DNA of 64,000 nucleotides from Bordetella parapertussis (lineage in GTDB: Bacteria; Pseudomonadota; Gammaproteobacteria; Burkholderiales; Burkholderiaceae_C), in the NCBI GenBank assembly GCA_945878065.1, contig CAMDXA010000007.1:15799-79798 (forward strand), given 5' to 3'. The notes under the pieces are model-generated. The model was not told where the DNA came from and searched no databases. It was given only the letters and a program-made list of their open reading frames with translations. The translations under genes and the position numbers were made by a program. Of the stretch, positions 3,486-39,863 are shown piece after piece; the stretch's first letter is position 1, and every line of letters starts with the position of its first letter.

Positions 3486-4415
3486 ATGAATCCCAATATT
3501 CCCGACGACAGTCAGGCCGCCGACATGGCTTTCACACTGGCCTTGCACCCTGATTACCGCATACTTCGCAGGCTGCAACCCAAGCAAGTGTTTGCTGATG
3601 CACCAGACGGTCGGCGACTGCTCAAGGGCATTGTGCTTGACACTGAAACCACTGGGCTCAATACCTCGCTGTGCAAAGTGATTGAGTTGGGCATGATTTT
3701 GTTTGAGTTCGATCCGGAAACGGGGCAACTGCACCGCGTATTGAAAGTATTTGATGAACTCGAAGACCCGGGTGTTCCTATTCCGCCGGAAACCACCGCA
3801 GTTCACCACATCACCGATGACATGGTGCGCGGCAAACGCATCAACGACCATGAGGTGCAATCCATGGTGGCTGAGGCCGCGGTGGTGATCGCACACAACG
3901 CACCCTTTGATCGCCCGTTTGTCGAGCAACGCTGGCCCGCATTTGAAGACAAACATTGGGCCTGCAGCATCAAAGACATTGACTGGAAAGCTGAAGGTCT
4001 GGGCTCAGCCAAATTGGAATATTTGCTGCAAACGCAGGGCTACTTTTATGACGCGCACCGGGCAGAAATGGACTGCTGGGCGTTGTTGGAATTGCTCAAT
4101 ATGGTGTTGCCACAAAGTCAACAACCCGTGCTGCTGCATTTGCTTGAAACACTCAACCAACCGCAAGTACGCTTGTCTGCCCTGGGCTCACCTTTCGATA
4201 CAAAAGACCTGTTGAAAGCCCGTGGCTACCGTTGGGACGGCGACAGAAAAACCTGGTACCGAAGTTTGTCGTCTGAAAAAGTGTTGGAAGAGGAAATCAA
4301 CTGGTTGAAACAAAAAGTTTATGCAGGCAAGCGAGCCAGTGTTGAAGTGGAAAAGCTCGGGGGAACCCTGCGTCATTCGCAACGCCAAGGTGAAAAATCT
4401 ATCGTGTCTTTGTGA
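3486..4415 (+). CDS. DEDDh-type 3'-5' exonuclease (DnaQ/epsilon-like)
   Basis: The exonuclease domain begins with LDTETTGLN (motif ExoI, Asp and Glu), continues with HHITDDM and AHNAPFDRPFVE (ExoII), and ends with HRAEMDCWALLELL, where His and Asp form ExoIII of the DEDDh class. Such proteins remove nucleotides from DNA 3' ends. The gene is not part of a polymerase operon, so it is probably an accessory exonuclease rather than the replicative proofreading subunit. A C-terminal extension of about 90 residues (KARGYRWDGDRKTWYRSL) resembles the small domain seen in other Burkholderiales proteins of this type. The frame is open back to 3375, but ATG 3486 is the more natural start; ATG 3525 (MAFTLALHPDY) is also possible. 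Confidence 0.85.
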   Translation: MNPNIPDDSQAADMAFTLALHPDYRILRRLQPKQVFADAPDGRRLLKGIVLDTETTGLNTSLCKVIELGMILFEFDPETGQLHRVLKVFDELEDPGVPIPPETTAVHHITDDMVRGKRINDHEVQSMVAEAAVVIAHNAPFDRPFVEQRWPAFEDKHWACSIKDIDWKAEGLGSAKLEYLLQTQGYFYDAHRAEMDCWALLELLNMVLPQSQQPVLLHLLETLNQPQVRLSALGSPFDTKDLLKARGYRWDGDRKTWYRSLSSEKVLEEEINWLKQKVYAGKRASVEVEKLGGTLRHSQRQGEKSIVSL

Positions 4416-4418
4416 ATT

Positions 4419-4823
4419 TCAGTAGTTCACCATTTGCCAAGGCACCTGACACACCGGAACGACCGGGTAATACTGCTGGCTGGTCTGGCAAAAATACGCC
4501 ACCCTTGGAGGGCTGTAAACGACGGAAGGTGTCACGACAACGGCAGTGACCGATGGCTGCGAATAGGTATTGGCCCAATAAACCGCTGAGCCCAAAATGG
4601 CGACGGTTGCCAAGGGTGACCATCCCGACCCCCGGTGTCCATCCCGATAACCGCTATGCCCATGCCTATATCCACCGCCATATCCATGCCTGTAGCCGCC
4701 ACCATGCGTTTCCAGTTTGATCACGGTGCGTTCACGGTGTTGCCAACGCGGCTTATCCGCCCAAGCGCCGGACATAAAAGAAACAAAAACTACCAAAAAA
4801 ACAAGAGGCGTGAATCGTTTCAT
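4419..4823 (-). CDS. Secreted Gly/His/Tyr-rich small protein, unknown function
   Basis: The 134-residue product starts with a clear signal peptide (MKRFTPLVFLVVFVSFMSG, cleavage probably after AWA). A positively charged patch leads into a low-complexity stretch of about 30 residues rich in Gly, His, Tyr and Arg (GGGYRHGYGGGYRHGHSG). A second hydrophobic segment (LATVAILGSAVYW) and a Pro/Val-rich tail with two cysteines follow. Similar small exported proteins are common in Burkholderiales and are annotated only as hypothetical. The His-rich repeat could bind metal, but nothing nearby supports that directly. It is convergent with the exonuclease gene, with only three bases between the stops. 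Confidence 0.7.
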   Translation of the reverse strand: MKRFTPLVFLVVFVSFMSGAWADKPRWQHRERTVIKLETHGGGYRHGYGGGYRHGHSGYRDGHRGSGWSPLATVAILGSAVYWANTYSQPSVTAVVVTPSVVYSPPRVAYFCQTSQQYYPVVPVCQVPWQMVNY

Positions 4824-4925
4824 ACAGTCTCCTTGGGGTTAGCGATTGGAAATTACTGAGCAACAACAAAACAACGCGGGCCACTGTCAGTTGGATGACA
4901 TGTGGTGTGGCTTAAGATTGACCGT

Positions 4926-5255
4926 ATGAAAAAATTTTTACGCCTCGTTTTTTATGCGTCACTGTTCACGTTGACCACCACATCAATTGCTGAGCCCTAC
5001 GTCTACCCTTCTGTGCATTTGCACGATTTACCAGGGGCGCTACAAGAGGCGTACCGACATGAAAAACCCAACCTGGGCGAGATAGGCCGCTGTGTGACCA
5101 GTTATGACAGCAACATGGACCAAGAAAAAATGATCTTCACCTGCTCTATTTACGTCAAGATGTCAGCAGTGGCAGAGCGCAAGGCGATGGAACGCTGCGA
5201 GCAAATGAAAGGAAAAAGAAATATCAAAGGCCCCTGCAAAGTCATCAAAGAATAA
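4926..5255 (+). CDS. Small secreted protein with C-terminal three-cysteine motif, unknown
   Basis: The product is 109 residues from the ATG at 4926 (MKKFLRLVFYASLF), chosen because it begins a good signal peptide; the frame stays open to 4902. The mature part ends in a Cys-x17-Cys-Glu-x11-Pro-Cys pattern (MERCEQMKG ... GPCKV). The same arrangement, with the identical 12-residue gap between the last two cysteines, closes the unrelated-looking gene at 16945-17475, so I infer a shared small extracytoplasmic module. No enzyme or binding family is recognised. The gene stands alone between the divergent 4419-4823 gene and the convergent MAPEG gene. Confidence 0.65.
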   Translation: MKKFLRLVFYASLFTLTTTSIAEPYVYPSVHLHDLPGALQEAYRHEKPNLGEIGRCVTSYDSNMDQEKMIFTCSIYVKMSAVAERKAMERCEQMKGKRNIKGPCKVIKE

Positions 5256-5269
5256 GGGGCAGGCTTTGG

Positions 5270-5650
5270 TCACTGAACCAACAATTGCACATAAATGGCC
5301 AGGCAGCTGGCATAAGCCACCACCCAACACAAGGTTCTGACGCTGGCCAAGTCCATTAAATAAGCCACCAAATACAGGACACGTGCCGCCACGAATATGA
5401 GGCAATAACGGGTCAATACAGTTTCATCCAAGGACAAGCCCAACCCGAGAATAACCGCGACAGCGAAAAAGGGAAATGCTTCAAACGCATTGTGCTGTGC
5501 TGCATTTGCGCGGGCGCGAAAACCGGTTTGGCGAGACAACCATTCGCGCGGGTTGTGGTTGTCGAATTCACGAAACCCCCATTTGGCGATGGCAGTGCTG
5601 AGAAGTGGCAACACACCAGCGATCAATAGACATAAAACAGGCAGGTTCAT
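5270..5650 (-). CDS. MAPEG family integral membrane protein
   Basis: The 126-residue protein has about four hydrophobic helices and the MAPEG core [18 protein letters not shown], followed by [23 protein letters not shown] proteins in eukaryotes are glutathione-dependent eicosanoid enzymes; the bacterial relatives mostly have no proven substrate. Its ATG overlaps the stop of aroQ in an ATGA arrangement, so the two are probably translated from one mRNA, with no obvious metabolic link. Confidence 0.82.
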
Positions 5651-6093
5651 TGTGAGACCGCCACCAGGCCGCGGATGGCCAATTCATAGCCATGGATACC
5701 TAAGCCCATCACAGTGCCTCGCGCGACAGGAGAGACAAAGGACTGGTGTCGAAAACTTTCGCGGGCGTGAATGTTTGAAATATGGACTTCAATCACAGGC
5801 AATCCGCAACCCTTGATGGCGTCATGCAAAGCCACAGACGTATGGGTCAGCGCCCCAGGGTTGAACACAGCGCCAAGTGCCGCACCTTCTTTGTGCAACT
5901 TGCCGTATGCATGGATTTTGTCGATCAACTCGCCCTCGTGGTTGCTCTGAAAGCAGTCGGCCTCAAACCCCAGTGCCCGAGCAGTTTGTACACACAACGC
6001 ATGAACATCATCAAGCGTGCTGGCCCCATACAGCTCGGGTTCACGGGTGCCCAGCAAGTTCAAATTGGGGCCATTGAGTACAAGAATTTTCAT
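5647..6093 (-). CDS. aroQ: Type II 3-dehydroquinate dehydratase
   Basis: This enzyme converts 3-dehydroquinate to 3-dehydroshikimate in the shikimate pathway. The start [15 protein letters not shown] and the REPELYG segment form the lid loop region with the catalytic tyrosine and arginine. [16 protein letters not shown] and [14 protein letters not shown] contain the conserved substrate-binding Asn, His and Ser residues. Length from ATG 6093 is 148 residues, the normal size of the dodecameric enzyme; the open frame runs back to 6159 but the extension lacks family similarity. The gene is the first of a two-gene unit with the MAPEG gene. Confidence 0.95.
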
Positions 6094-6182: not shown

Positions 6183-6869
6183 ATGATTCGACTGGTGGTG
6201 TTTGATGCCTACGGGACACTTTTTGATGTGTATTCTGTGGGAGCGATGGCCGAGTCGTTATTTCCCGGGCAAGGGGCGTCCTTGTCTATTCTTTGGCGTG
6301 ACAAGCAAATTGAATACAGCCGTCTGATTTCCTTGAGCGATCCACTCAATCCGCTGGGAAGCCGACATTACCAATCATTTTGGGACATCACAAGATTGGC
6401 CCTGCAATACAGCTGTCAGCGCCTGCAACTTGAGTTGACGCCCGCCAAACAAAAACAGCTGATGGACCAGTATTCCCACTTGCAACCGTTTGAGGAAAAT
6501 TTAGAAGTGCTGCAATCGCTGAAAAAAGCAGGCATGCGATGCGCCATCCTCTCAAACGGCAGCCCAGACATGCTCAATTCAGCGGTCAGCAGCGCGGGCA
6601 TGACGGGATTGATAGACAAAGTGTTGTCTGTAGATGAAGTCAGGCAATTCAAAACCTCACCGCAAAGCTATGGCTTGGTCGCCCACCACTACCCGACCGA
6701 TATTCGCGAGGTGCTGTTTGTATCCAGCAACAGCTGGGATGCCTTGGGCGCGACTTGGTTTGGTTTTAAAAGTTTTTGGGTCAACCGACAAGGTCTGCCT
6801 TTTGAAACATTGGGGCCACGCCCCAGTCACAGTGGCGCTAACTTAAGGGATATCTTGCCGTTGCTCTAG
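6183..6869 (+). CDS. (S)-2-haloacid dehalogenase type II (HAD superfamily)
   Basis: The product belongs to the HAD hydrolases that replace the halogen of short 2-haloalkanoic acids with a hydroxyl group. The nucleophile Asp lies in VFDAYGTLFDVYS at the start. SNGSPDML, the Lys of FKTSPQSYGL, and SSNSWDALGA follow in the order and form typical of L-2-haloacid dehalogenases rather than phosphatases. Length is 228 residues, as expected. A GGAG ribosome-binding site precedes the ATG. No dehalogenation pathway genes are nearby, so the natural substrate is uncertain. Confidence 0.88.
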   Translation: MIRLVVFDAYGTLFDVYSVGAMAESLFPGQGASLSILWRDKQIEYSRLISLSDPLNPLGSRHYQSFWDITRLALQYSCQRLQLELTPAKQKQLMDQYSHLQPFEENLEVLQSLKKAGMRCAILSNGSPDMLNSAVSSAGMTGLIDKVLSVDEVRQFKTSPQSYGLVAHHYPTDIREVLFVSSNSWDALGATWFGFKSFWVNRQGLPFETLGPRPSHSGANLRDILPLL

Positions 6870-6894: not shown

Positions 6895-7323
6895 ATGATG
6901 CGTAGAACTACCAGCGGCTTTGCCAAATATTTAGTGTGTGCAACGGCGATCAGTGTTTGCGGTCCGCTGTTTGCCATGGCTTGGTTTTCCAAGCAGCCAA
7001 CGCTTCGTCAAACTGAATTAACACCGACAGAACTTCAGCAACTGGATATTCGGTCGGGATGGTCCAGCGACGACGCCAGCTTGATGTTATTTGAGGTCAG
7101 CAACCAAAACAGCGGCCCGGTTTTTTGTGTGGGCGCAAATTTTGAATTCCAAAATGGAAAAAAACGCTCGCAAGCGTTTGATCCTAAGCTCTACATACCT
7201 GCCAAAGCAGTGAAAAAAACATCAATACGTGGTATTGAAAAGAAAGAAGTGAAAACCTTCGGATTCAGCTGTCTGTGTATGAAAGCATCACCGGAAGGTC
7301 CGTGCGAAAACGCTTTCAAGTAG
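6895..7323 (+). CDS. Putative exported protein, unknown function
   Basis: The 142-residue product begins with a charged stretch (MMRRTTSGFAKY) and a hydrophobic segment ending near PLFAMA, consistent with a signal peptide or anchor. The rest has a mixed beta-like composition (LMLFEVSNQNSGPVFCVGANFEF) and ends with closely spaced cysteines (GFSCLCMKASPEGPCENAF). No family is recognised. It lies 25 bases after the dehalogenase gene and its end overlaps the convergent bactofilin gene by eight bases, which supports the stop but says nothing about function. Confidence 0.62.
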   Translation: MMRRTTSGFAKYLVCATAISVCGPLFAMAWFSKQPTLRQTELTPTELQQLDIRSGWSSDDASLMLFEVSNQNSGPVFCVGANFEFQNGKKRSQAFDPKLYIPAKAVKKTSIRGIEKKEVKTFGFSCLCMKASPEGPCENAFK

Positions 7324-7768
7324 ATGCGTCTTTGTTGCCCGAGGGTGTTGTGGCAGCAGCGCCGGAAGGTGTTGTCGGAGTCGCTGCACCTGGTTTGGCG
7401 GTACTTGGCGCACTGCCGGAGGGATAAACCGGGGTTGCGCCCACTTGCTGCATTTCACCGCGGAACTCACCACCACGCTCGATTTGGATTTGTGAATATT
7501 CCAATTTACCCGACACCTTGCCGGTGGCACGAATATGCAAATGGTCACGGCAATGGATCACTTGATGCAATTCGCCTTCAACTTCAATGCTGCGAGCAGT
7601 CACTTTGCCCGTGATTTTTCCGGATTGACCAATAAAAATTTCCTCAGCAGTCAGTTCGCCGTCAACAGTGCCATAGATGGTCGCTTTCTTGGGAACATTC
7701 AAAGTACCCTTGAAAGTCACGCCGTTACCGATCACGAGGTTATTGGATTGATCCATATTGGTTGCCAT
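7316..7768 (-). CDS. Bactofilin family polymer-forming cytoskeletal protein
   Basis: Bactofilins self-assemble without nucleotide into filaments or patches at the inner membrane and act in cell shape, polar localisation or envelope work. The core runs from about residue 10 to 110 as repeated short beta-strand rungs with glycine turns (VIGNGVTFKGTLNVP, GTVDGELTAEEI, GKITGKVTARSIEVEG, HIRATGKVSGKLEY). The tail is low complexity, rich in Pro, Ala and Thr. The 150-residue length is typical. A paralog lies at 16346-16720, and the two align along the whole core. No LmcA-like M23 peptidase partner is adjacent. Confidence 0.88.
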   Translation of the reverse strand: MATNMDQSNNLVIGNGVTFKGTLNVPKKATIYGTVDGELTAEEIFIGQSGKITGKVTARSIEVEGELHQVIHCRDHLHIRATGKVSGKLEYSQIQIERGGEFRGEMQQVGATPVYPSGSAPSTAKPGAATPTTPSGAAATTPSGNKDAST

Positions 7769-15421: not shown

Positions 15422-15982
15422 TTATAGCCAACGCAAAGGCTCACAATGAACGCTGCCACGTTGACTGCTCAAGGTCATTTCGCCTTCTTGTATGGTGGCT
15501 TGTAACTGCATGCTGCGCTCTGCCATGCCGGCCATGGCCTGCGACGCTTCATGCGGTATGCGCATGACATGCAATTTTTTTTGCCGGTGCAATTTATTTT
15601 CAATGCCCTTCCACCACACCTCTGCCGCATAAGAAAAGGCGTACACCCACACTTCATCGGACTGACTGGCTGCGCGCTGTAAAGCTTTTTCTTCGGGTTG
15701 CCCCACCTCTATCCACAGGCGTTTGCGCCCGGTAAAATCGGTCAATGACACATCCGGATCATCAGGATTGGACAGGCCAGCGCCAAAGGCCAGCATGCCA
15801 TCACCCTGGCAGGTCGCTTGAAGTTGATAAGCGTGCAAAGACAAGGCCACCAAACGAACCATCATTCGTTCGTCTGTTTCGCTGGGATGTCGGGCAAGGG
15901 TTAAAGCGTGGTCTGCGTAGTAAGCGTGGTCAATGTCAGCAATTTGCAGTTGCGCTTTAAATACGGTGGATTTGAGTGCCAT
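15422..15982 (-). CDS. yaeQ: YaeQ family protein
   Basis: YaeQ proteins have a PD-(D/E)XK nuclease-like fold, but no activity is firmly established; E. coli YaeQ was first noted as a suppressor of an RfaH defect. The product is 186 residues with family segments STVFKAQLQIADIDHAYY, ALTLARHPSETDERMMVRL, WIEVGQPEEKALQRAASQ and VYAFSYAAEVWW. WIEVGQPE matches the position of the nuclease-like acidic motif. The ATG at 15982 gives the family start. It lies downstream of a tiny gene and 38 bases upstream of the quinone oxidoreductase gene on the same strand. Confidence 0.9.
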   Translation of the reverse strand: MALKSTVFKAQLQIADIDHAYYADHALTLARHPSETDERMMVRLVALSLHAYQLQATCQGDGMLAFGAGLSNPDDPDVSLTDFTGRKRLWIEVGQPEEKALQRAASQSDEVWVYAFSYAAEVWWKGIENKLHRQKKLHVMRIPHEASQAMAGMAERSMQLQATIQEGEMTLSSQRGSVHCEPLRWL

Positions 15983-34245: not shown

Positions 34246-34764
34246 ATGTTTTCCAGCTTGACAAGAAATGCCGTGAACACAGTGTTGTTGGTATGTAAAA
34301 ACCAACTCAATGGCCCAGTTACCACGCTGACCATCAGCAAGCGTTTGGGTTTGTCAATTTCCTACCTTGAAGCCTTGTTGTCCAAATTGAAAAAGTCTGG
34401 CTTTGTGGTGTCTTACCGCGGCCCCGGTGGCGGCTACTGCTCAAACGGCAAACCCTCCGAGCTCAAACTGATTGATATTGTTCGTGCATTTGATTTTGTC
34501 GACACCACAAAAAGCAAGTCAACGCTCAAGCCGCAGGAATTCGACAAAGACTTGATCAAGTGGATGATGCAAGAGTTTTTAGAAAACCATTTGCAACATA
34601 TGAACCTGGAGGAAGTCATGGCTCAGATGCCCGAGGAAATTTGGGGCGCTGAACCACAAAGAACCGCGACCTCAGAGCCGCGCAGATTCAAGCCATTGCA
34701 AATCCATCGTTTGCCCAGTGGACCAAATTCGGTCTTCAATCTGGCGTCTTCCATGGCGGCTTGA
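34246..34764 (+). CDS. Rrf2 family transcriptional regulator without the Fe-S cysteines
   Basis: The 172-residue protein has the Rrf2 winged helix (TTLTISKRLGLSISYLEAL, LLSKLKKSGFVVSYRGPGGGY), with the typical wing containing the Gly-Pro-Gly-Gly-Gly turn. The three clustered cysteines of IscR, NsrR and RsrR are missing; only isolated cysteines occur, so it does not appear to carry their cluster. The helix and tail (DLIKWMMQEFLENHLQHM) are unlike IscR. GGGAG precedes the ATG. It is followed 40 bases later by an MpaB-type oxygenase gene, probably as one operon. Confidence 0.83.
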   Translation: MFSSLTRNAVNTVLLVCKNQLNGPVTTLTISKRLGLSISYLEALLSKLKKSGFVVSYRGPGGGYCSNGKPSELKLIDIVRAFDFVDTTKSKSTLKPQEFDKDLIKWMMQEFLENHLQHMNLEEVMAQMPEEIWGAEPQRTATSEPRRFKPLQIHRLPSGPNSVFNLASSMAA

Positions 34765-34804
34765 CCGCATCATTAATTTCTTCTCGTTAATTCAACCACG
34801 ACAT

Positions 34805-35695
34805 ATGACAGCACCAGAGATGCCGCCCTTTGTGCGACGTCTCATTGGCCTTCGCATCAAACAACTGACTGGCTCAACCAGTTCCCCTGACGCATTTGCA
34901 CAACCGGCTGGAGACCCAGGTTTGCTGGGCCCAGACGCTGTGTCTTGGCGGGTTCACGCCCATTTCGTGGGCATGATGGTGGGTGGCCTGTCATCCTTGA
35001 TGTTGCAAGCCCTGCATCCGCGCGCACTGGCGGCGGTGTGGGACCACTCCAATTTCAGAAGCAACCTCAAAGGCAGATTGGGAAGAACCGCATTTTTTGT
35101 GGCCGTTACCACTTACGGCGCAAAAGCAGATGCACTGTCAGCGATTGAACGTGTCAACCATATTCATGCGCATGTGAAAGGCCAAATGCCGGACGGCAAC
35201 CCCTACGTTGCGAATGAACCCGAGTTATTGCGCTGGGTACATCTGGCTGAAGTCACCAGTTTTTTAAAGGGCTACCAATGGTTGTCCACCCGACCACTAA
35301 GCGCTTTTGAAGAGAACACCTACATCGCAGAAATGGCAACCATCGGACAACGCCTAGGAGCGGACCCATTGCCGACAGATGCGCTGCGCAGTGATGAAGC
35401 TTTGAAGACATTTCAACCTGACTTGCGATTCGATGACCGAACCCAAGAAATTTTGCGTGTGATTGAAAACTATCCGGTCGACCTGTGGGATCTGCCGTTC
35501 ATGAAATTGGTGATACAAGCCAGTTTTCACATATTGCCCGATTGGGCGATTCATATGTTGCGTAAACCGGTCGCCTGCGAATGGGAAAAGCAAATTGTTC
35601 GCCAGGCCTTACGCATCGCGTCAGCGCCAGTTCAAGCGACCTTGGATATCGATGGAGTCGCTGCCCATGCCAGACGCCGGGCTCAAGCCTGTTAA
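34805..35695 (+). CDS. MpaB-type oxygenase family protein (DUF2236)
   Basis: The 296-residue protein from ATG 34805 has the DUF2236/MpaB features: SLMLQALHPRALAAVWDHSNF, here cited in part, followed by RTAFFVAVTTYG, RVNHIHAHVKGQMPDG and LLRWVHLAEVTSFLKGYQ. The conserved histidines of those segments bind haem in characterised relatives such as latex-clearing protein. The product is probably a haem-dependent oxygenase with an unknown substrate. Its end overlaps the convergent 35692 gene by four bases. Its operon neighbour is the Rrf2-type regulator. Confidence 0.82.
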   Translation: MTAPEMPPFVRRLIGLRIKQLTGSTSSPDAFAQPAGDPGLLGPDAVSWRVHAHFVGMMVGGLSSLMLQALHPRALAAVWDHSNFRSNLKGRLGRTAFFVAVTTYGAKADALSAIERVNHIHAHVKGQMPDGNPYVANEPELLRWVHLAEVTSFLKGYQWLSTRPLSAFEENTYIAEMATIGQRLGADPLPTDALRSDEALKTFQPDLRFDDRTQEILRVIENYPVDLWDLPFMKLVIQASFHILPDWAIHMLRKPVACEWEKQIVRQALRIASAPVQATLDIDGVAAHARRRAQAC

Positions 35696-36471
35696 GTCGA
35701 TTGCGTCCACACCTGCTGACAAGTCGGGCATTTGATCTCCATCCGTTTGTAGACATCAATGCGGCACTTCTGGCCACATGAAGGACAACTGACAATCGCC
35801 TTTCCATGACTGATCTGTGGCCTTTCCAACTCTTGGTCTGTCAATGTGATCGGTACGCGCAAATCGAATATTTGACTGGCCTTGAAGCTAACCTGATAAG
35901 CGGGACGGGGCAAATCTACTCTGGCGAAATCACCGGCTTGCACCGTGAGCGGATACAGCTTGTCTCCGATATGGCTTTCTGCGGCATACCAGCGCCTTGA
36001 ATTCGGAGGCTTCATCAATTGCAAAATGCTGGGGTCTTGAGACACGCGACTGGATTCATCCACCAAAAAACGGATGGCATCTAATTGCTGCCTGACTTCG
36101 TGTTCCGACGCGCTTTTGTGGGTGTAGTAGTAATAACCAAAATACACGCACGCTTTCAAGTCATTGCCAAAGGAATACCACTTGAGCACCAAAATGCGCA
36201 AAGCGTCAATGAATTTCAGCAGATCAGCGTTCACACCGATCACCCGGTCATTGACCATGGCCACCAGCAAAAGATTGAGTGAACTGGTCAAGCCCGTGCT
36301 TTGATGTATGCCTTGGGGCTGGTTAAACATATTTTTTTGTTCGATGCTGTGGTGTGCCACCGAAAGTGCGCGAAAGTATTCTGGCAAGGCAGCGCTGACA
36401 TGGGGTAACAACTTTAAAAAAGCTTCCTTGTCACGGCTCGTCGAACGGTACTTCTCAAACGGGTATTCCAT
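35692..36471 (-). CDS. Zinc-ribbon protein of a four-gene unknown operon
   Basis: The 259-residue soluble protein has an alpha-helical N-terminal half (EKYRSTSRDKEAFLKLLPHV, FIDALRILVLKWYSFGNDLK) and a beta-like middle (HIGDKLYPLTVQAGDFARV). A C-terminal zinc ribbon has two CxxC pairs (SCPSCGQKCR and IKCPTCQQVW). The ribbon could bind nucleic acid or a partner protein. It is the last gene of an operon beginning at 39203, and the spacing to the J-domain gene is nine bases. No family is recognised; the function must be tied to the J-domain and membrane proteins before it. Confidence 0.68.
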   Translation of the reverse strand: MEYPFEKYRSTSRDKEAFLKLLPHVSAALPEYFRALSVAHHSIEQKNMFNQPQGIHQSTGLTSSLNLLLVAMVNDRVIGVNADLLKFIDALRILVLKWYSFGNDLKACVYFGYYYYTHKSASEHEVRQQLDAIRFLVDESSRVSQDPSILQLMKPPNSRRWYAAESHIGDKLYPLTVQAGDFARVDLPRPAYQVSFKASQIFDLRVPITLTDQELERPQISHGKAIVSCPSCGQKCRIDVYKRMEIKCPTCQQVWTQST

Positions 36472-36480
36472 ATAGCGCGC

Positions 36481-36984
36481 CTAACTTGCGTTTAATTTTT
36501 CGATGATCAGATTTTTCAATTCAGTGAAGCTGTACCTGACCTCCTTGCCGTCGAGTTTATTGACATAGTGATTGGTCCACCCGTACTGAATGGTCAATGA
36601 GTTACCAAATAACTCCTCATACAAATGAAGCATTTGAAATTCATCAATCTTGTTGCTCGCCAAATGAGACAACACTGTTTCGTGTTTATCTGAGGACTTA
36701 ACAGGCTGCGCTTCGTGCACAGGGGATGACTGCGGCGAAGGTTCTTCGGGGCGCTTGTGCTTGTCGGTAAATTTCTTCCAAGCTGCATCAAATTCTTTGC
36801 GCTTGCGGGCGGTGCCAAGCATGGCGTGCGCGTGATTGAGCTCAGCCATGATTTCCGTATAAAGGAATTTCTTCTCGGGATGCCGATCCGGGTGGTATTT
36901 TTGTGCCAACGCTTTGTAAGCTGCTTTTATCACCTCGTTTTCAGCGGTATGCAGCAACCCCAAGACTTGGTACAAATCCTTCAT
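36481..36984 (-). CDS. J-domain (DnaJ-like) protein of a four-gene unknown operon
   Basis: The 167-residue protein has an N-terminal J domain (MKDLYQVLGLLHTAENEVIK), with the HPD motif at residues 31-33 in KYHPDRHPEKK, which stimulates an Hsp70 ATPase. Helix IV with KRKEFDAAWKKF follows. The C-terminal 80 residues are not the DnaJ Gly/Phe, zinc finger or substrate domains but a unique helical region (IDEFQMLHLYEELFGN, LKNLIIEKLNAS). It is a dedicated co-chaperone, probably directing DnaK to the membrane proteins encoded beside it. It lies three bases after the preceding gene. Confidence 0.83.
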   Translation of the reverse strand: MKDLYQVLGLLHTAENEVIKAAYKALAQKYHPDRHPEKKFLYTEIMAELNHAHAMLGTARKRKEFDAAWKKFTDKHKRPEEPSPQSSPVHEAQPVKSSDKHETVLSHLASNKIDEFQMLHLYEELFGNSLTIQYGWTNHYVNKLDGKEVRYSFTELKNLIIEKLNAS

Positions 36985-36987
36985 ACG

Positions 36988-37791
36988 TCAACCAGCCAGC
37001 GCATGAAAACTGAGGGATTTGACACGGGCGTTTTCAAAGTACGCCTTCCAGAAATCTAACAACATAGGGTCCAAGGTGCGGGGACTGCTATTGACCAAAT
37101 ACACTTCTACATGAACTTGTGAAAAATCAACAAACAATTTGCTGGCCGCATAACTGCTGGCGTATGCTTCAAAACCAACAGGCTTGCCATACATGGTCAG
37201 AGACTTGCTGTTTTGCAGCATATCCGAGAGCACGTATAAGCGCACTTCACCGTTGATTTTTTGTTTTTGTATGGAATTGAGATTGACCAGTTGCAGCATT
37301 TCCAAAATAGGCGATTCATTGGCAGCTTGCACATTCATCATGCCCTCAGTAACGGACAACATGGGCTCAATGAAGTGTTTGATGTATTGCTGCTTGAGTG
37401 CTTTGAGATTGGCCGTCAATTCACTTTTGTCATGGCCGTCACCGGGATTGCACAGCTCAAAAAGTGGCTTGGTGTTGGCCTGGAAATCGTCACCCAGGGC
37501 ATACACCGACAACAATTGGCCAGGGGGTGTTGAGTCGACCAACTTTTTGATAAAAATGTCCAGCGATGTCTTTTGCGCCAAATTAAACGGGTCGGTTCTA
37601 TCTATCAACACCACCCGTTGACCGCCCGGGCCTTCAGCGGGGCACATCGTCACCGGGTCCAAGCCGGGCTTGCGTTGCAGATTCCACCAAAACGCAGAGG
37701 CAATACCTGCCAGCACCAAAGAAACAAAGAACACGCTGAAAAGTATGTTGCTTCTTGTTTTGCGCTTTTGCGATCTGGTTTGACGTGCCAT
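36988..37791 (-). CDS. Membrane-anchored VWA-like protein of a four-gene unknown operon
   Basis: The 267-residue product has a basic N terminus (MARQTRSQKRKTRS), one transmembrane helix (FSVFFVSLVLAGIASAFWW) and an extracytoplasmic domain. That domain opens with RVVLIDRTDPFNLAQ, and continues QLLSVYALGDDFQ, VRLYVLSDMLQNS and VHVEVYLVNSS. The order of strands resembles a von Willebrand A fold, but the metal motif reads DRTDP rather than DxSxS, so metal binding is uncertain. It lies 11 bases downstream of the coiled-coil membrane gene. The gene is otherwise unknown. Confidence 0.68.
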   Translation of the reverse strand: MARQTRSQKRKTRSNILFSVFFVSLVLAGIASAFWWNLQRKPGLDPVTMCPAEGPGGQRVVLIDRTDPFNLAQKTSLDIFIKKLVDSTPPGQLLSVYALGDDFQANTKPLFELCNPGDGHDKSELTANLKALKQQYIKHFIEPMLSVTEGMMNVQAANESPILEMLQLVNLNSIQKQKINGEVRLYVLSDMLQNSKSLTMYGKPVGFEAYASSYAASKLFVDFSQVHVEVYLVNSSPRTLDPMLLDFWKAYFENARVKSLSFHALAG

Positions 37792-37802
37792 AACAAAAAT
37801 GC

Positions 37803-39203
37803 TCAGTGGTATTTCAAATGGTTCAAGCGCGAAATTGATTGCTCGTACAAGGCATAGACATTTTCACGCTGTGTAGTCACATTGCTTTCGTAGGTTTTGA
37901 TGTCTTGCTCCAACGCAGCAAGCAAAGCATTTTCTTTGACGTTGTCCAAACGCGGCATGCTGACTGGCTTGAGCGAGGGCAAGCTGTCAAAGTAACTGGG
38001 GCGCAAACCATCTTCACGCGCGATTTCATTTTCAATGCGAAATTTCCTGATAACCGCGTAAAGCACCACCTCGGTTTGGCTGACCTTATCCGTGCATTCA
38101 CGGACCAAGGCTTCTTTTTCCAACAAGAGTTTTTTCAAGGAGGCTGAGAGCTCATGCAAGGTCTTGAAACCTTGGTTGATCAGATCGAGTTTTTCCTGCT
38201 TTAAATCTTCGAGTTCTTCTTTGACTTCTTCAAATTCAGCGTCAAACTCGTCGCGTGTTTGGTGACATCGTCGCACCATGGCACCATACCCCGGATAGAT
38301 ATCGTCGATGGTCAATCCATCAAAGATGGCGGCAATCGCAAAACCCAAAGATATAGCCACCAAAAACCAAGACACCAAGTCATTCAAACCAAAAAAATGC
38401 GTTTGCATCGCCGCCCAAGCTTGTTGTGTCGGATTGGCGGCGCCCGCCATCAACTGCTCTCGGATATGGCCAATGGACATGGCCACCAGCAACATGAAAC
38501 ACAACGCAAATACCACGGAAATAGCGCCGAATAATTTTCCGGCGATGGGTTTGCTCACGATCCAAGGCACAGTAAATCGTCCCAAGAAAAAACAACCCAA
38601 CACATTGATACCTGCCAGCAAGGCGGCGTAGACAAAACCACCGATCAATCCTGAGCTCAAGCCTTCGGCAAAAAAATTGGCGTTCAACACGCCTTCAATA
38701 CCTACCAAAAAAACCAACACCGAGTAACGCAATATCAATCCGGAGGAGGATGGGTAGTTGGCCTCGCGCTCCAAACCATTTTTCTTCTTAAATACTTCTA
38801 ATTCTTTGAACCTGACCATGGCGTTGTAAGCCAATTTTTTCAGCCAATCACCCTGCTCGTCCATGAGTTTGCGGGTTTGCCGTTCAAACTCGGCATTCAA
38901 AACATCTGATTGCAAGGCTTTGTAGGTAAGTTCCATGCCCACCACTTTGGCATGGAGGTCTTCTGTTTGCCGAATGTAATCGCGCTGAACCTCTTCACGC
39001 ATCAGATTCAAATGCTCGACCACTTCTGTTTCTTTTTGCGTGGGTTTTTTTTCATGAAAGGACGGCAAGCCAAGTCCAGCCAATCGTTTGGCTTCTTTAA
39101 CAAGTTGAAACTTGTCAACAATCGAATCAATTTCAAGTGACAAGTTTTCAGGCCGCGCAGGTCGCCCGGAAAAAAACTGCTTGAACCACGCCATGACCCG
39201 CAT
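37803..39203 (-). CDS. Coiled-coil, four-helix membrane protein of a four-gene unknown operon
   Basis: The 466-residue protein starts at ATG 39203, which has GAGGT upstream at good spacing. An N-terminal coiled coil runs from about residue 20 to 140 (EVVEHLNLMREEVQRDYIRQ). Four hydrophobic helices lie at roughly 155-290 (LILRYSVLVFLVGIEGVL, FVYAALLAGINVLGCFFLG, KLFGAISVVFALCFMLLVAM, LVSWFLVAISLGFAIAAIF), here as short excerpts. A second coiled coil runs to the end (EFEEVKEELEDLKQEKLDLI). Both coiled coils are probably cytoplasmic. The layout recalls MotA-like or stator-scaffold proteins only superficially. First gene of the operon. Confidence 0.7.
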   Translation of the reverse strand: MRVMAWFKQFFSGRPARPENLSLEIDSIVDKFQLVKEAKRLAGLGLPSFHEKKPTQKETEVVEHLNLMREEVQRDYIRQTEDLHAKVVGMELTYKALQSDVLNAEFERQTRKLMDEQGDWLKKLAYNAMVRFKELEVFKKKNGLEREANYPSSSGLILRYSVLVFLVGIEGVLNANFFAEGLSSGLIGGFVYAALLAGINVLGCFFLGRFTVPWIVSKPIAGKLFGAISVVFALCFMLLVAMSIGHIREQLMAGAANPTQQAWAAMQTHFFGLNDLVSWFLVAISLGFAIAAIFDGLTIDDIYPGYGAMVRRCHQTRDEFDAEFEEVKEELEDLKQEKLDLINQGFKTLHELSASLKKLLLEKEALVRECTDKVSQTEVVLYAVIRKFRIENEIAREDGLRPSYFDSLPSLKPVSMPRLDNVKENALLAALEQDIKTYESNVTTQRENVYALYEQSISRLNHLKYH

Positions 39204-39407: not shown

Positions 39408-39863
39408 TTAGCTGACTAATCCGCCAGACTCGATTTCCAACAGCATGAGTGACAGCATGCGCTTTTGCTTGTCATCAGAAGATTGGTTCAGCGCATCGTC
39501 AAGCACTTCGCGGATATCAGCTGCTTCCACCCATTCCATGTCCCATTCAGGAAACAGTCGATCGCGAATTTCATCTTCTTGGCTTAACACCACCACATTG
39601 GTATGGCGCGGGTCGGCAGAAATACGGGCCAACAATTGGCTGACGTTGTCATGCGGCCCTTCGAGCCATTGAAAAAAAATACCTTGGCCGTACACCAACA
39701 AACCGGTGATACCCAGCCTGGGGTTATGGTGTCTTGCCGTGGCAATGATGCTGGCGATGGCGTCTTTGTCCAGGGCCGCTGATGCTTGACTGCAATACAC
39801 CAAGTTGTGAATTGAGCGGCCAGACTGGCCCTCGTCATTTTGCGAGGCGTAAATGGGGCTCAC
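39408..39863 (-). CDS. BLUF-domain blue-light photoreceptor
   Basis: The BLUF domain covers roughly residues 18-110 of 151 and binds FAD for blue-light sensing. The three key residues are Tyr23 (LVYCSQ), Asn47 (ARHHNPRLGITGLL) and Gln65 (GIFFQWLEG). Their spacing of 24 and 18 residues is identical to AppA (Tyr21, Asn45, Gln63). The tail (RLFPEWDMEW) carries a tryptophan in the usual place. No effector domain is fused, so it acts through a partner. The start is a GTG overlapping the stop of a 28-codon upstream ORF, so translation is probably coupled. A promoter-like repeat upstream is shared with the flavin reductase gene. Confidence 0.9.
   Translation of the reverse strand: MSPIYASQNDEGQSGRSIHNLVYCSQASAALDKDAIASIIATARHHNPRLGITGLLVYGQGIFFQWLEGPHDNVSQLLARISADPRHTNVVVLSQEDEIRDRLFPEWDMEWVEAADIREVLDDALNQSSDDKQKRMLSLMLLEIESGGLVS

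Follow-up and report, generated by a model that had tools for sequence, protein, structure and literature searches.

In Bordetella parapertussis (GenBank assembly GCA_945878065.1, contig CAMDXA010000007.1), a stretch of 64,000 nucleotides (positions 15,799 to 79,798), hereafter the window, carries an operon of four genes on the minus strand, named A (37803..39203, 466 residues), B (36988..37791, 267 residues), J (36481..36984, 167 residues) and Z (35692..36471, 259 residues). Purifying selection acts on all four. A-B-J-Z is a real, conserved unit, which has apparently not been described. It represents a form of the motor-associated VWA envelope systems that no longer has the motor-like pair and carries a J-domain/zinc-ribbon module. 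A first-pass annotation had described four leftward genes, encoding a 466-residue protein with coiled coils on both sides of four membrane helices, a membrane-anchored VWA-like protein with the metal motif DRTDP, a 167-residue J-domain protein with an intact HPD motif and its own C-terminus, and a zinc-ribbon protein. The features described below bear out this picture.

A has helical regions at its N- and C-terminus, flanking four membrane helices (approximately residues 155-294, 38322..38741, minus strand; Kyte-Doolittle scan). The end regions are taken as cytoplasmic coiled coils. Among 23 aligned sequences, E170, N174, N200, H246, R248, D301, P304 and G305 are invariant, and some of the invariant polar residues fall in or near membrane helices. 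No family was found for A in Pfam or PADLOC, and its NCBIfam and PHROGs matches are at chance level. B consists of a single N-terminal membrane helix followed by a domain with the VWA fold (residues 55-267, 36991..37629, minus strand), which is predicted to be periplasmic. Its motif resembling a metal ion-dependent adhesion site (MIDAS) departs from the canonical DxSxS...T/S...D. D64, T/S66, S160 and D190 are found in all 40 aligned sequences, but position 68 is a proline in 30 of the 40 and in the window, where the degenerate loop reads DRTDP (residues 64-68, 37588..37602, minus strand). No acidic residue occurs in membrane-helix columns 17-37 of this alignment, so B hardly resembles an axle that binds protons.

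J starts with a J-domain (Pfam E-value 8.6e-16), followed by a variable linker and a conserved C-terminal domain (approximately residues 105-165). The HPD motif (residues 31-33, 36886..36894, minus strand) is kept in 47 of 48 J-family open reading frames (ORFs; some loci overlap), the remaining one being a contig-end fragment. With its complete J-domain and HPD, J is a candidate J-domain co-chaperone and resembles the DnaJ family, but it has no further DnaJ domain (Pfam), its conserved C-terminal domain is its own, and it is found only alongside A in the genomes searched. Z comprises an N-terminal helical domain (approximately residues 10-140, 36052..36444, minus strand; Foldseek), a beta-rich middle and a C-terminal zinc ribbon (residues 219-259, 35695..35817, minus strand; CPxCxQKCR...CPxCxxxW). 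The four cysteines of the ribbon resemble those of MJ0042/ZitP-type zinc ribbons, and the ZitP zinc finger superposes on it with a root-mean-square deviation of 1.5 over 35 residues. However, the ribbon stays under the Pfam and NCBIfam cut-offs and, unlike in these proteins, is joined to a helical domain that has no PDB match at a Foldseek E-value of 0.001 or lower.

To place the operon among its relatives, loci were collected by motif-based scans, which yielded 59 loci from genome_contigs (because of the motif-based scan, these are a sample) and one from IMG/VR. A tblastn search with A matched 24 of 72,556 plasmid records, 7 of which were inspected, and gave no match in phage records. Neighbouring B, C, D, J and Z genes were called with hidden Markov models built for this analysis. 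Together with the window, B adjoins A in 65 of these 68 loci (59, 1, 7 and 1, respectively); the others are L025, where A lacks B, and two loci in which the contig breaks off right behind A (L032, L055). Judged by these sequences, A-B behaves as an evolutionary unit. Next to it, 14 of the 59 loci have a co-directional A-B-J-(Z) arrangement (L008-L019, L021, L026; Z is cut off in L014), five have a divergent Z-J/A-B arrangement (L027-L031), and 16 have A-B-C-(D), L056 and L058 giving no hit for D. In the remaining 24, neither module was found adjoining A-B, or the contig is cut off. All seven inspected plasmid loci and the IMG/VR viral contig carry A-B-C-D, and none of the C-D loci has a match to J or Z. 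In co-directional or divergent form, the gene set recurs in 19 loci. J and Z are, in addition, often unlinked from A-B. Five draft assemblies have two A loci on separate contigs (L010/L028, L023/L042, L024/L040, L025/L035, L032/L034). In L041, an A-B-only locus, a surface-adhesin protein E gene (7256-7630; Pfam Adhesin_E, E-value 6.2e-22) lies directly upstream of A. In L061, L062 and L064, from Campylobacteraceae metagenome-assembled genomes (MAGs), A-B closely follows an ORF that is 511 or 512 residues long and that in L062 we take to resemble BatD.

The C-D pair of the relatives, by sequence comparison, appears to be a MotA/ExbB/ZorA-like protein together with a ZorB/OmpA-like protein, encoded with A-B in several groups, among them Alphaproteobacteria, Thiomicrospira, SAR86, Thermodesulfovibrionia, Helicobacteraceae, Rokubacteriota, Caballeronia and one beta-proteobacterial MAG. 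Of 15 C members, 6 match MotA_ExbB (best E-value 3.6e-4, under the curated cut-off) and 10 match one PADLOC ZorA model (best E-value 1.6e-6). The conserved stretch YYLGFLFTL...FGxALxSTIxG seems akin to the channel helices of ExbB/TolQ, the threonines having similar positions. D matches the PADLOC ZorB models PDLC00609 (5/13) and PDLC00641 (2/13), with a best E-value of 2.9e-25; OmpA passes the Pfam cut-off in L001 and narrowly misses it in L005. An invariant acid, glutamate E15, stands at the start of the membrane helix in 13 of 13 D proteins. A thermonuclease-family gene, a possible effector, lies beside A-B-C-D in L001-L003, L006 and L007 (plasmids of Rhizobium, Sinorhizobium and Microvirga).

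The presence of a separate motor-like C-D pair at many A-B loci also bears on the question whether A-B itself is an ion-driven motor, with B as the rotating axle, like the pairs of TolQ and transpore-helix vWA proteins described in the available part of PMC12204202. B is indeed a tethered periplasmic VWA protein, A is polytopic with its invariant polar residues in or near membrane helices, and the two genes stay together in nearly all loci. Nevertheless, the missing acid in the membrane helix of B and the lack of any relation between A and C (hhalign probability 1% against the C profile; no MotA_ExbB match for A) make this reading very unlikely. On the same grounds, with no Pfam match, A is not regarded as a member of the MotA/TolQ/ExbB family. 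According to that part of the source, the tethered vWA proteins are likewise membrane-tethered, periplasmic and encoded with motor-like genes. They differ from B in their proton-binding acid, in the motif SHLS, which the source gives for their first family, and in a TolQ-like motor, none of which is found in or beside the B of the window. The diversity of MotAB, treated in the available part of PMC12505986, is also among the closest literature.

How the two modules relate to each other was addressed by a tree of A+B (FastTree, 60 of the 68 loci, 731 columns, midpoint rooted), from which L014, L025, L027, L032, L048, L055, L060 and L065 were left out because they are short or lack B. A single clade (support 1.0) unites the window with the other Burkholderiales loci that lack C-D, 32 in all, and sits next to the C-D loci L033, L044 and L047. 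Five Campylobacteraceae loci, without either module, form a separate branch. Read most simply, C-D was lost once and J-Z was gained. At the level of genomes, C is present in 3 of 37 A-bearing genomes, precisely those with C-D adjoining A-B, and absent from all 29 genomes of the J-Z clade (the genome search covered C and not D). J (E-value 1e-20 or lower) is found in 26 of the 37, all of them among the 29 of the clade, and in none of the 3 C-D or 5 Campylobacteraceae genomes. Z occurs in 24 of the 29 and in 0 of these 8 others. As far as the genes show, J and Z therefore co-occur with A-B in the Burkholderiales clade, in cis or in trans, and C is not found there. Among the 150 genomes of a family control, one has A, and this same genome is the one with Z and with J; J, a dedicated family, is absent at an E-value of 1e-20 or lower from all 149 genomes without A. 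The association in trans (Fisher test without correction for relatedness: J, p 1.4e-12; Z, p 1.6e-9), the recurrence in 19 loci and the purifying selection on all four genes already contradict the idea that these are chance neighbours or a degenerate remnant, which is scarcely credible.

A more serious alternative is that J and Z are assembly or quality-control factors for A-B, as a client-specific co-chaperone and an adaptor, and no substitute for C-D, with A-B being a passive tether or receptor. As a large coiled-coil membrane protein, A would be a plausible chaperone client, and the frequent unlinking of J and Z from A-B is what can be seen for housekeeping factors. The Campylobacteraceae A-B loci without both modules fit as well. 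However, no genome among the 37 has C together with J or Z (3 carry C), which is unexpected for a mere folding factor, and J is dedicated to genomes with A. This alternative is possible, if somewhat doubtful.

A possible fifth, periplasmic component is E, a small exported protein of approximately 145 residues with two conserved cysteines. It adjoins B in L028-L030 (L028:10256-10681) and unlinked J in L095 and L097-L099 (L095:3589-4029), being broken by an internal stop in L098. A profile search finds it in 27 of the 29 J-Z-clade genomes, the profile having been built from six of these 27, and in 0 of the 8 other A-bearing genomes. In the family control it occurs in 2 of 150 genomes, one of them (G117) without A. 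E was not found in the window.

The C-D pair also invites comparison with Zorya, whose effectors include ZorC/D or ZorF/G. In the available part of PMC11890865, ZorE is a further effector, and ZorAB works as an ion-driven motor of 5:2 composition that has a cytoplasmic tail and domains binding peptidoglycan; like the A-B systems, it sits in the inner membrane, with coiled coils on the cytoplasmic side and domains in the periplasm. The PADLOC scan covered A, B, J, Z, C and D. Some members of the C-D pair match ZorA and ZorB profiles, but PADLOC yields nothing for A, B, J or Z, and the operon of the window lacks C-D, so it is not a Zorya system, which needs ZorA and ZorB. A defence function against phages or plasmids from a Zorya-like ancestor, in which B or D senses envelope disturbance and the rest signals to a cytoplasmic effector, would agree with these profile matches, the plasmid relatives of A, the thermonuclease gene at five of the seven inspected plasmid loci and the sparse presence of A among the genomes of the family control (1/150). 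On the other hand, a Pfam scan found no nuclease in the window operon (neighbours at other J-Z loci were not scanned), and the genes downstream of the operon are alike and ordinary in the window, L009, L010 and L013, judged by position and sequence start. Moreover, J-Z is scattered in trans, unlike a defence cassette, A-B-C-D occurs on one IMG/VR contig and A has no match in phage records. Defence is thus unlikely. Another comparison concerns the FtsZl1/vWA/OmpA membrane-remodelling system, the operons of which likewise combine VWA, OmpA-family and membrane proteins, and some of whose GTPases carry a domain like the DnaJ cysteine-rich one (available part of PMC2875224). Its Tubulin_2 (PF13809) was found in 1 of 23 A-bearing genomes searched and is absent from the window operon, which is not assigned to this system. 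In agreement with the first-pass annotation, which knew of no named system with this gene set, no description of it was found in the open-licence PubMed Central literature (subscription papers lay outside the search).

In the window, a BLUF blue-light photoreceptor gene (39408-39863) stands immediately before A and runs the same way. L009 has a similar ORF ahead of A, and upstream of this ORF are two more (4374-5891 and 6484-6861) that we take to resemble an OLD-type ATPase and a MazF-type toxin. In L010, L012, L013 and L015, an ORF of 474 or 475 residues on the opposite strand precedes A. On the other side, an MPAB/Lcp-type oxygenase gene (34718-35695) converges on Z with an overlap of four bases, and a gene resembling it by its sequence start comes after Z in L009 and L013.

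The architecture of these loci and the exchange of modules, taken on their own, are very probably correct. A would serve as a scaffold in the inner membrane, its large helical arms lying in the cytoplasm, and B would be a membrane-tethered periplasmic VWA domain binding a periplasmic or surface partner. C-D would act as a 5:2 motor, powered by ions, to move or gate A-B. In the clade of the window, J and Z may do the job of C-D from the cytoplasm: J would recruit DnaK via its HPD-containing J-domain, Z would be the adaptor to the arms of A, and ATP hydrolysis by Hsp70 would assemble, disassemble or re-set the A-B complex. This full statement, mechanism included, is put forward tentatively, at less than an even chance. 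A bolder version is rather doubtful. It holds that an envelope machine ancestrally driven by the proton motive force through C-D (ZorAB/ExbBD-like) lost its motor in the Burkholderiales clade and was re-powered by Hsp70, with J and the zinc-ribbon adaptor taking over, DnaK working the periplasmic VWA device from across the inner membrane through ATP hydrolysis, and E as fifth component. The earlier suggestion of a membrane machine that recruits Hsp70 is partly supported.

Several points weigh against the proposed substitution. The tie of J-Z to A-B is drawn from gene adjacency and co-occurrence. The exclusion of the two modules rests on few C-D genomes, as whole-genome searches for J and Z covered three of them and the search for D was confined to the loci, and the exchange is seen in one clade, hence as one event. 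The counts are phylogenetically non-independent, and each query alignment contains rows from about 10 of the 29 genomes. Since five Campylobacteraceae genomes carry A-B and gave no hit for C, J or Z, A-B may depend on neither of the two modules. Within the J-Z clade, 5 genomes lack Z and 3 lack J (G009 and G033 lack both), and loss and incompleteness are not separable here because the genomes are drafts. For C, the ZorA match in the member shown (129-346) lies past the channel-like part and hence counts for little. For D, any single ZorB model matches at most 5 of 13 proteins, and the D of L033 matches neither ZorB nor OmpA.

If the proposal is true, A-B would be an unnamed envelope system present in multiple phyla, and its Burkholderiales form would amount to a natural experiment, a chaperone module having taken the place of a membrane-motor-like pair. 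The role of accessory 5:2 motors beyond flagella, Ton, Tol and Zorya would become testable through two versions of one machine, and J would exemplify a dedicated J-domain protein of bacteria whose membrane client is defined.
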